From positions 2,790,001 to 2,854,000 of the forward strand of contig NZ_CP071870.1 of assembly GCF_017569205.1 (NCBI RefSeq): a DNA stretch of 64,000 bases, given 5' to 3'. Shown one piece after another: positions 32,790 to 38,557 of the stretch. Position numbers and translations under genes: made by a program. Within the stretch, counting starts at the first letter, position 1; each line of letters starts with the position of its first letter. The notes beneath the pieces are model-generated. The model was not told the DNA's origin. It ran no database searches and was given only the letters and a program-made list of their open reading frames with translations. This DNA comes from Propioniciclava sp. MC1595. GTDB taxonomy: Bacteria; Actinomycetota; Actinomycetes; Propionibacteriales; Propionibacteriaceae.

Positions 32790-32907
32790 CCGAGCGATCC
32801 ATGTCGGCCCCCGACCGGTGTCGGGCCCGGCCGCGACCCGTGCGCGGGCTGGGGTCCTCCCCCTACTCTGGTGGACGCGCATCACCGAGCGGAGAAGGAC
32901 AGACACC

Positions 32908-33999
32908 ATGAGCGGCGGCCTCGCAGCACTGCTGGACGACATCGCGGCGCTGGCCAAGCTGGCCGCAGCCTCGGTCGACGACGTGGCCGCGGCCGCCGGG
33001 CGCGCGGGCGCCAAGGCCGCCGGCGTCGTCATCGACGACGCAGCCGTGACCCCCCGCTACGTGACCGGCTTCAGCCCGGCGCGCGAGCTGCCGATGATCA
33101 GGACGATCGCGATCGGGTCGCTGCGCAACAAGTTCCTGTTCATCCTCCCGGCCATCCTGGTGCTGTCCCAGTTCGTGCCGTGGATCCTCACGCCCCTGCT
33201 CATGCTCGGCGGCCTGTACCTGAGCTACGAGGGCGCCGAGAAGATCTGGGAGAAGGTCTCCGGCCACGGCAAGGACAACCCCAAGAACAAGACGCCCGTC
33301 GCGCTGCAGGGCGGCGACCAGGAGAAGGGGATGACGTCGGGCGCGATCCGCACCGACTTCATCCTGTCGGCCGAGATCATGGTGATCGCGCTCAACGAGG
33401 TCGCCAACGAGCCGATCGTCTCCCGCGCCATCATCCTGGCCGTCGTCGCGCTCGCCATCACGATCGGCGTCTACGGCGTGGTCGCCCTCATCGTGAAGAT
33501 GGACGACATCGGCCTCCACCTCGTGGAGAGCGGTCGTGGGCCCGGCATCGGCAACGCCCTGGTCAAGGGCATGCCCAAGCTGCTCACCGCCCTCGGCATC
33601 ATCGGCACCATCGCGATGCTGTGGGTCGGCGGCCACATCCTGCTGGTCGGCGTCGACGAACTCGGCTGGCACGCCCCGTACGGTTTCGTCCACGACGCCG
33701 AGGTGCTGGTCGCCGGCGCCACCGGCCCGCTCGGCGGGTTCATGGGCTGGCTGACGAACACCTTCTTCTCGTTCCTCGTCGGCCTGTTCGTGGGCGGCAT
33801 CATCGTCGCGATCATGCACGTCATCCCCCGCAAGGGCGGCCACGGCGACGCGTCCGGCCACGGCAGCCCCGAGACCGCCCGCCCCGCCGACCACGACCGG
33901 ATGGTCCCGGGCTCGGCCCAGGGCAACTCCCTCGGCGGGCTCGCCGCCCTGCAGGCGGCCGAGCGCCGCGCGGAGCGCGAGGAGCACGAGGGCCACTGA
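32908..33999 (+). CDS. DUF808 (YedI-like) inner membrane protein
   Basis: A 363-residue membrane protein of the DUF808/YedI family, with the conserved start SGGLAALLDDIAALAK, then PARELPMIRTIAIGSLRNK, several membrane helices, KGMTSGAIRTDFILSAEIMVIAL, and a C-terminal helix FFSFLVGLFVGGIIVAI. The biochemical role is not known to me. It has a His-rich hydrophilic C-tail. Its TGA forms the left edge of a terminator stem shared with the opposite SMR gene. Confidence 0.9.
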   Translation: MSGGLAALLDDIAALAKLAAASVDDVAAAAGRAGAKAAGVVIDDAAVTPRYVTGFSPARELPMIRTIAIGSLRNKFLFILPAILVLSQFVPWILTPLLMLGGLYLSYEGAEKIWEKVSGHGKDNPKNKTPVALQGGDQEKGMTSGAIRTDFILSAEIMVIALNEVANEPIVSRAIILAVVALAITIGVYGVVALIVKMDDIGLHLVESGRGPGIGNALVKGMPKLLTALGIIGTIAMLWVGGHILLVGVDELGWHAPYGFVHDAEVLVAGATGPLGGFMGWLTNTFFSFLVGLFVGGIIVAIMHVIPRKGGHGDASGHGSPETARPADHDRMVPGSAQGNSLGGLAALQAAERRAEREEHEGH

Positions 34000-34026
34000 G
34001 CCCGCGGCGTCCGCCGTTCGGGCTCA
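33997..34026. terminator. Bidirectional terminator built from both stop codons
   Basis: TGAGCCCG (33997-34004) pairs exactly with CGGGCTCA (34019-34026), with an inner CGGCG/CGCCG stem. The outer bases are the DUF808 TGA stop on the plus strand and the SMR TGA stop on the minus strand, so the hairpin can end both transcripts. Confidence 0.7.
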
Positions 34027-34377
34027 GGCTTCGGTCGAGCCGGCCACCGGGTCGGGCGCAGCGGGCGTGGAGAACTTCAGGCCGATCACGCAGCCGATGA
34101 TCCCGGCCAGCAGCAGCACCTTGACCGGCGACAGCGGCTCGGCCCCGGTCGCGGCGGCCCAGGCGACGGTGAGCACGGCGCCGATACCGGTCCAGACGGC
34201 GTAGGCCGTCCCGGTCGGGATCGACTTCATCGCACAGCCCAGCCCGACGACCGAGAGCACGGTCGCCACGAAGAACACCACGGTCGGCCCCAGCAGGGTC
34301 AACCCGGCCGACTGCGCGAGGGCGGTCGCCCAGACGGCCTCGAGCACGGCCGACACGACCAACACGATCCACGGCAC
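34024..34377 (-). CDS. sugE: SMR-family exporter subunit, Gdx/SugE type (second of pair)
   Basis: A 117-residue four-helix transporter. The first helix carries VLEAVWATALAQSAGLT, with the essential Glu and the downstream Trp of the SugE/Gdx subgroup rather than EmrE. Gdx proteins export guanidinium in exchange for protons. GTG 34377 lies one base after the stop of the other SMR gene, a strict coupling that suggests a heterodimer. It has a hydrophilic 15-residue C-tail. Under the guanidine-III riboswitch upstream of its partner. Confidence 0.9.
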   Translation of the reverse strand: MPWIVLVVSAVLEAVWATALAQSAGLTLLGPTVVFFVATVLSVVGLGCAMKSIPTGTAYAVWTGIGAVLTVAWAAATGAEPLSPVKVLLLAGIIGCVIGLKFSTPAAPDPVAGSTEA

Positions 34378-34378
34378 G

Positions 34379-34693
34379 TCAACCCACCACCTTCAGGCCG
34401 ACGACGCAGGCGACGATGCCCATCAGCAGCAGCACGCGGCGCAGCGTGGCGGGCTCGACGCCGCGCACCATCGCCCACACCACGGTCAGGGTCGCGCCGG
34501 TGGCGGTCCAGACGGCGTAGGCGGTCCCGACCGGGATCGTGACCATCGCCACCCCCAGCCCGTACAGACTCAGCACGGACGCGACCACGAACGCCAGGGT
34601 CGGCTTCCACTTCCTCAGGCCGTCCGACGCGCCCAGCGCCGTCGCCCACACCGCCTCGAGCACGCCCGAGGCCAGCAGGATCACCCAGTCCAC
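34379..34693 (-). CDS. sugE: SMR-family exporter subunit, Gdx/SugE type (first of pair)
   Basis: A 104-residue four-helix small multidrug-resistance protein. GVLEAVWATALGASDGL holds the catalytic Glu (about residue 13) in a SugE/Gdx context, and GTAYAVWTATGATLTV is the conserved third-helix segment. GTG 34693 follows GGAGGAG; a longer reading upstream has no family sequence and would overlap the riboswitch platform. With its partner it should export guanidinium. Confidence 0.92.
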   Translation of the reverse strand: MDWVILLASGVLEAVWATALGASDGLRKWKPTLAFVVASVLSLYGLGVAMVTIPVGTAYAVWTATGATLTVVWAMVRGVEPATLRRVLLLMGIVACVVGLKVVG

Positions 34694-34751
34694 GAAGACT
34701 CCTCCACAAGACATCGGACGCCGTGGGCGTCCGTGAAGCGAACACACCGTT

Positions 34752-34791
34752 GGCCAGTCTTGTCGTCACCGGGTACTGAACCGTCGTCCGG
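34752..34791 (-). promoter_or_regulatory. Guanidine-III (ykkC-III) riboswitch
   Basis: On the minus strand, CCGGACGA (34791-34784), GTACCCGGT and GACAAGAC (34764-34757) match, in order and spacing, the conserved blocks of the ykkC-III guanidine riboswitch. It lies 58 bases upstream of the SMR gene pair, the known target class. The bases ACAAGAC of the aptamer are exactly complementary to GTCTTGT (34712-34706), which sits directly before the GGAGGAG ribosome site, so free RNA can hide that site and guanidine binding should expose it. Confidence 0.88.
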
Positions 34792-34872
34792 GGCTGGGAG
34801 CCGCCACCAGCCTAGCAACGCGCGCGACGGGCAGCGATTCGGGCACAATGGACCCCGGCCCACCCGGGCCAT

Positions 34873-34945
34873 GCCTCCGTAGCTCAGTTGGTAGAGCGCC
34901 CGCCTTGTAAGCGGATGGTCGCGGGTTCGAATCCTGTCGGAGGCT
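34873..34945 (+). tRNA. tRNA-Thr (anticodon UGU)
   Basis: A 73-base cloverleaf. The acceptor GCCTCCG pairs with CGGAGGC plus discriminator T; the D-loop is AGTTGGTA, the anticodon loop CTTGTAA (anticodon TGT), and the T-arm contains GGTTCGAATCC. One mismatch closes the anticodon stem (C27-A43). CCA is not encoded. A GTG start codon follows one base after its 3' end. Confidence 0.95.
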
Positions 34946-38481: not shown

Positions 38482-38503
38482 GCGGACCGCGAACGCGGTC
38501 CGC
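38482..38503 (+). promoter_or_regulatory. 10-bp perfect hairpin in the leader of the ABC ATPase gene
   Basis: GCGGACCGCG (38482-38491), AA, then CGCGGTCCGC (38494-38503), followed by GTTTCC, 54 bases before the ATG at 38558. It could be an attenuator, an operator or an RNA-stability element. The neighbour on the left is divergent, so it does not terminate a gene reading into it. Confidence 0.45.
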
Positions 38504-38557
38504 GTTTCCACTACGGATCGTCGGGCACGTACCTGCCCGTGGAAAGGATGTTGTGGC

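Follow-up and report, generated by a model that had tools for sequence, protein, structure and literature searches.

A full-length guanidine-III riboswitch before two coupled Gdx-type SMR genes in Propioniciclava sp. MC1595, and a survey of the genes behind its relatives

Two SMR genes lie one base apart on the minus strand of the window (the whole 64,000-nucleotide stretch of DNA that was analyzed), and the locus raises the question of whether guanidine controls them and whether their two products act together as one exporter. A sequence-only reading had proposed a guanidine-III (ykkC-III) riboswitch in front of these genes, on account of three conserved sequence blocks, and had suggested that the genes encode a heterodimeric guanidinium exporter of SugE/Gdx type. 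Here we followed up this proposal in the window, in the genome, and across the genomes of the same order and class.

The aptamer and the two genes behind it

In order to place the riboswitch, the window was scanned against all of Rfam at gathering thresholds (cmscan). The guanidine-III family RF01763 matched at 34816-34749 on the minus strand with a score of 50.2 bits against a gathering threshold of 36, confirming the riboswitch assignment; the lack of any covariance-model hit, which had been named as one part of the refuting outcome, was looked for and this match was found instead. The match spans the full model (positions 1-67; E 1.9e-7 in the window search), and a search of the whole 3.43-Mb genome returned it as the single copy (E 2.5e-9). 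The three blocks, CCGGACGA ... GTACCCGG ... GACAAGAC, were all found by eye on the minus strand, for which the sequence-only reading had given no strand, and alignment to the Rfam consensus showed that the conserved central core of the family is present at 34752-34791. This interval, which had been given as the riboswitch, does hold the conserved core, but it is merely the 3' part of the aptamer, which extends over 34749-34816 and has its P1 arm outside. The aptamer is on the same strand as the first gene (gene A) and ends 55 nt before its start.

Gene A (34379-34693, minus strand) has a GTG start and encodes a protein of 104 amino acids, and gene B (34024-34377, minus strand) likewise has a GTG start and encodes 117 amino acids. 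As the sequence-only reading had stated, a single base separates them: gene A ends with its TGA at 34379 and the GTG of gene B is at 34377 on the same strand. Both proteins matched PF00893 (61 bits for A and 66.4 bits for B, cut-off 23.7), and they are the only two matches to this family in the genome. The closest solved structure to either one was Gdx-Clo (6wk5), with E 5e-17 and 65.2 bits for A and E 1.1e-16 and 64.2 bits for B, compared to 2e-4 (24.7 bits) and 4.2e-6 (30.2 bits), respectively, for the best EmrE entry. Alignment to Gdx-Clo showed that E13, W16, S42, Y59 and W62 of its binding site are retained in both subunits; according to PMC7695847, any change at one of these five positions lowers or abolishes exchange by Gdx-Clo. 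The SugE equivalog model (NCBIfam PRK11431, NF008512; cut-off 126) was reached by neither protein (A 65.1, B 78.4), and we therefore describe the proteins as Gdx-type by residues instead of SugE-type, so that the Gdx half of the original label stands and the SugE half does not. In length, family, binding-site residues and closest structure A and B thus resemble Gdx-Clo, from which they differ in that the window has two subunits of biased charge where Gdx-Clo has one near-neutral subunit, in that subunit B has Ala at position 10, and in that the GXG motif of subunit A begins with Ala instead of Gly. In this subunit, the TM3 fulcrum motif, G-x-G, is replaced by A-T-G (TATGA, compared to TGIGA in Gdx-Clo); Thr at the middle position of this motif was seen in 8 of the 18 first subunits of riboswitch-linked pairs.

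Around the locus, a DUF808 family protein (PF05661, 413.7 bits) is encoded on the plus strand at 32902-33996; its gene runs towards gene B, and about 25 bases separate the ends of the two. On the same strand as the DUF808 gene, an msiK RNA (RF01747, 59.9 bits against 33) lies at 38497-38553, and the gene directly after it reads by eye as an ATP-binding protein of an ABC transporter.

The arrangement of riboswitch and SMR pair is ordinary in this order. Across its 196 genomes, RF01763 gave 125 matches in 122 genomes (the window and 124 others, three of the matches being below the cut-off), with 120 genomes over the cut-off; in the class it was found in 175 of 394 genomes, 168 of them over the cut-off. 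An SMR pair follows the aptamer at 18 of the 125 loci and one SMR gene at 72, giving 90 loci with at least one SMR gene, and no SMR gene follows at 35. Two of the 18 pair loci (L125 and L126) have riboswitch scores below the cut-off, and one locus of ambiguous orientation (L108) was re-oriented by hand. The 35 SMR-free loci include L127, where the match (28.5 bits, below the cut-off) lies inside a reading frame and is probably false. At two further SMR-free loci (L039 and L117) a riboswitch over the cut-off is followed by neither an SMR nor a CBU_0592 gene; by eye, the downstream genes of L117 and L039 resemble an isochorismatase-type hydrolase and an aminotransferase-type protein. A tRNA-Thr(TGT) gene (34873-34945, plus strand; Rfam tRNA, type from the anticodon) is the divergent neighbor of the switch in the window and lies outside it; linkage to a tRNA was rejected as a general feature, a tRNA being found within 500 nt upstream at 3 of the 125 loci.

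A proposed pairing of the aptamer with the start region

Guanidine-III riboswitches are ON switches in which guanidine stabilizes a pseudoknot and exposes the ribosome site (PMC5696562 and PMC12186494), and the latter source describes an action on translation and RNA stability. In the window, the Shine-Dalgarno sequence GGAGG of gene A was read at 34701-34705 (minus strand). We propose that, when guanidine is absent, ACAAGACU at the 3' side of the aptamer would pair between the Shine-Dalgarno sequence and the GTG of gene A and so hide the start, and that the guanidine-stabilized pseudoknot would draw this strand back from the start region; we give such masking of the gene A start about an even chance. 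The candidate partners, all on the minus strand, are the aptamer strand ACAAGAC at 34757-34763, proposed from the free-ensemble fold and from cis complementarity, and AGTCTT at 34695-34700, which is the complement of the aptamer AAGACT and lies between the Shine-Dalgarno sequence and the start codon. In the free-ensemble fold of the window leader, five of the six pairs of the AAGACU:AGUCUU helix have probabilities of 0.76-0.87, and the remaining pair has 0.20. A perfect complement of ACAAGAC, GTCTTGT, is also present directly before the Shine-Dalgarno sequence (34706-34712), and it may be there by chance; this 7-bp match was rejected as significant by itself, since a complement of at least 7 bases to the aptamer tail occurred in 2514 of 20000 leader shuffles.

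In order to examine this complementarity across loci, the last 20 aptamer bases were compared with the 14 bases before their own start codon and with those of other loci; of 122 loci, three that duplicated another in both tail and leader had been removed. The cis helix score was 12.98 against 11.76 (sd 0.22) for permuted leaders at the 71 distinct single-SMR loci (0 of 2000), 13.32 against 12.03 at the 17 distinct pair loci (9 of 2000), and 12.81 against 10.68 for shuffled leaders over all 119 loci. The excess was kept in sets of 79, 62 and 22 SMR loci thinned by protein identity (0, 0 and 6 of 5000, respectively); in both the test and its thinned repeat, one locus (L009) was given an ad hoc start. 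It is a modest excess, in that the leader belonging to a locus stands at a median of the 57th percentile among all leaders, and it was absent in the 31 distinct CBU_0592 loci (1770 of 2000). Overall, the cis complementarity at SMR loci fits a masking of the start site.

The leader of the window folded no better than its shuffles (z 0.54, with 137 of 200 shuffles equally or more stable), and minimum-free-energy folding was accordingly rejected as evidence for a switch. To imitate the guanidine-bound state, the aptamer was blocked in the fold model; the pairing of the GGAGG bases then went from 0.67, 0.73, 0.57, 0.40 and 0.44 in the free fold to 0.79, 0.86, 0.95, 0.70 and 0.30. Four of the five bases thus gain in pairing, and this simple model therefore shows no release of the ribosome site. 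In the same fold model the start codon was freed at its first and second base and paired at its third.

Subunit topology and competing readings of the locus

The suggestion of a heterodimer was supported by the charge bias of the subunits. The Arg/Lys bias, taken from the alignment to Gdx-Clo with loop limits that we set ourselves, was -5 for gene A and +1 for gene B, from which A is predicted to be N-out/C-out and B N-in/C-in. Among the 18 riboswitch-linked pairs the mean bias was -4.1 for first and +1.8 for second subunits; the first subunit was the more negative in 18 of 18, and the signs were strictly opposite in 15, the second subunit having a bias of 0 in the other three and a weak +1 in the window. 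The single-SMR proteins were near-neutral, with a bias of -1 in 68 of the 71 that were scored (one of the 72 loci, L009, was left out for its misassigned start). E13, W16, S42, Y59 and W62 were found in 18 of 18 first, 18 of 18 second and 71 of 71 single subunits, and the two genes of a pair, their start codons having been chosen by a script, are spaced by -4 to +2 bases in 18 of 18. At position 10, every first subunit (18 of 18) and every single one (71 of 71) has Gly, and all 18 riboswitch-linked second subunits have Ala. Ala10 was nevertheless rejected as a mark of every second subunit: seven riboswitch-free Gdx-like pairs, read by eye, have Ala (4), Gly (2) or Ser (1) there, and one of the two with Gly is from the same genus as the window (L231).

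In a tree of the SMR proteins (73 rows, with 36 of the 71 singles kept), the second subunits formed one group (SH-aLRT 85) and the first subunits needed two changes; 41 of its 70 inner branches lacked resolution, and a single duplication as the source of all pairs was set aside. According to PMC9574504, more than 95% of adjacent SMR gene pairs are oppositely biased and such subunits assemble as heterodimers, and about 20% of Gdx proteins in GEBA genomes occur as pairs; PMC12186494 also has adjacent SMR genes specifying heterodimers. The window genes resemble these paired SMRs in being adjacent and oppositely biased and are in principle the same, differing in that the bias of B (+1 within our loop limits) is below the +4 center given in PMC9574504. 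The features of the pair fit subunits that insert in fixed and opposite directions and form an obligate heterodimer, the arrangement that PMC9574504 describes for paired SMRs.

Several other readings of the locus were weighed against these data, two of them concerning the RNA. If transcription termination controlled this leader, the hairpin CGGACGCC-CAC-GGCGTCCG at 34733-34715 (minus strand) would be the terminator. It is a terminator-like site on the correct strand with 8 pairs, 7 of them G-C, and it is the one such site in the leader, compared to a mean of 0.0 (sd 0.1) in shuffles. The aptamer of the window resembles the known RF01763 riboswitch in its full-length covariance match, its conserved core and its position in the 5' leader of SMR genes, and it differs in having 55 nt and this extra hairpin before the start, where 68 of 72 single-SMR loci have 8-16 nt; a distance of 27-44 nt was found in 8 of the 17 other pair loci (in one of the eight, L112, the start was set automatically to a CTG and an in-frame ATG lies upstream). 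Against termination, the hairpin has ATGTCTTGTG as its tail, which makes a poor T run; in the riboswitch locus L120 of the same genus the start follows after just 13 nt, and the distance is 10-19 nt in 9 of the 17 other pair loci, so that a terminator has no room there. We therefore regard termination as unlikely to be the control, while the hairpin leaves room for a transcriptional contribution. That the aptamer is a decayed relic is a reading that draws on a second locus of the same genus, L231 in genome G086 (L231:960-1250), where a tRNA-Thr and an SMR pair are arranged as in the window and no riboswitch was found. In an alignment of the window with L231, the tRNA and the gene start were conserved, the aptamer core was not, and ACAAGAC and the leader hairpin were missing; the pair thus occurs there without an intact aptamer, and the aptamer may therefore be dispensable in the genus. 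In the window, however, every conserved block is intact and the score is well over the cut-off, and we consider a relic extremely improbable. Ten same-family genomes, picked from among those with two SMR matches and no riboswitch in the order survey, gave no RF01763 match over the cut-off in a looser search (0 of 10), and Gdx-like pairs were recognized by eye in seven of them; the pair is therefore independent of the switch. The genus holds the pair with and without an intact switch, which makes for a natural comparison of what the switch contributes.

The remaining two readings concern the proteins. The two SMR proteins could be separate dual-topology homodimers, given that the near-neutral single-gene relatives behind the same riboswitch presumably form homodimers, and that both subunits carry the full set of tested residues, so that each could act alone. 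This is hard to reconcile with the opposite bias in 15 of 18 pairs and with a lower first subunit, a fixed order and tight spacing in all 18, or with the heterodimer assembly of adjacent, oppositely biased subunits in PMC9574504, and homodimers without any heterodimer are improbable. It is more improbable still that the main substrates of the pump are drugs or quaternary ammonium compounds (Qac-type) and not guanidinium. Many NCBIfam Qac models were listed below their cut-offs for both proteins, and both missed the SugE cut-off; but W16, which is reported in PMC7695847 to be conserved in Gdx and replaced in Qac and to separate the two subtypes, is kept in both subunits, Gdx-Clo is ahead of the best EmrE entry by about 40 bits for A and about 34 bits for B, and a guanidine riboswitch precedes the genes.

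The reading that we prefer, and hold to be highly probable, is that the locus is a guanidine-detoxification operon encoding a riboswitch-controlled Gdx heterodimer. Guanidine binding to the aptamer would turn on translation of gene A, and translation of gene B would be switched on through its coupling to gene A; A would insert with both ends outside and B with both ends inside, and the two would form a single antiparallel heterodimer that carries guanidinium out in exchange for protons. A genome-wide search gave no guanidine-I riboswitch, and for urea/guanidine carboxylase the genome gave partial matches only, none over the cut-off; our guess is that export is the only guanidine response of this genome. 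In essence, the locus is known in kind, being one more clean guanidine-III switch on a paired Gdx exporter.

CBU_0592 proteins behind guanidine-III riboswitches

The survey of the order also brought up a different protein behind the same riboswitch. At 32 of the 35 SMR-free loci (e.g., L007, L048, L062 and L119), the aptamer is directly followed by a gene for a mini membrane protein of the CBU_0592 family, as at L048:1501-1850; the family call rests on NCBIfam NF047864, which matched for the two examples scanned. We know of no assigned function for this family. No Pfam family matched for the three CBU_0592 proteins scanned, so that no relation to SMR proteins emerged. The genome of the window itself gave no NF047864 match. 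Among the 196 genomes of the order there were 46 CBU_0592 matches, 32 of them at guanidine-III riboswitches (positions compared by hand), with 29 of the 32 in one large-genome family (f2) and one in each of three others (f1, f3 and f4). One genome (G160) has the riboswitch with a CBU_0592 gene and no PF00893 match.

The riboswitch-linked and unlinked proteins differ at one residue. The Glu of a WGF(L/I)LLE(G/S)xW motif was found in 32 of 32 riboswitch-linked copies of the order, and the 14 unlinked copies have Asn (13) or Gln (1) in its place; within about 500 bases on either side of these 14, there were no Rfam matches at gathering thresholds. The 32 linked copies had first been chosen by a pattern that contains the Glu, and a model built from only the 14 Asn/Gln copies recovered the same 32 loci, all with Glu. 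At the level of the class, 20 of 50 CBU_0592 matches were fetched, four of them for an adjoining riboswitch, and among the 19 readable ones there were 7 with Glu and 12 with Asn. Five of the seven Glu copies are behind guanidine-III riboswitches (L242, L243, L244, L261 with 36.9 bits, and L251 with 34.8 bits, just below the cut-off), and none of the 12 Asn copies had a guanidine-III match at E up to 1. For the two other Glu-type copies (L256 and L258), the 200 bases fetched on each side contained no guanidine-III match, and the unreadable copy, L245, is interrupted by an in-frame stop and does have a riboswitch. In total, a riboswitch was present in the stretch fetched for 37 of the 39 copies with Glu and for none of the 26 with Asn or Gln (Fisher 3.8e-16, for sequences that are related and not independent).

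The CBU_0592 proteins occupy the same place behind guanidine-III riboswitches as the SMR pair of the window, and they share with Gdx an E-x-x-W in a hydrophobic stretch, with the spacing of E13-x-x-W16. They differ from SMR proteins in having about 80 amino acids and, by eye, three apparent membrane helices. From these comparisons we infer that the Glu branch of CBU_0592 may handle guanidinium. Among the paper titles and abstract openings searched, none named CBU_0592 together with guanidine-III. Our tentative proposal, to which we give a little less than an even chance, is that across this order guanidine-III drives three interchangeable exporters, namely a single Gdx, a Gdx pair and a Glu-type CBU_0592 protein, and that the last would be a new, non-SMR guanidinium exporter whose E-x-x-W is convergent with that of Gdx. 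This by-product of the survey outweighs the window locus in importance: the split between Glu with a riboswitch and Asn or Gln without one points to a candidate new family of guanidinium exporters of about 80 residues.
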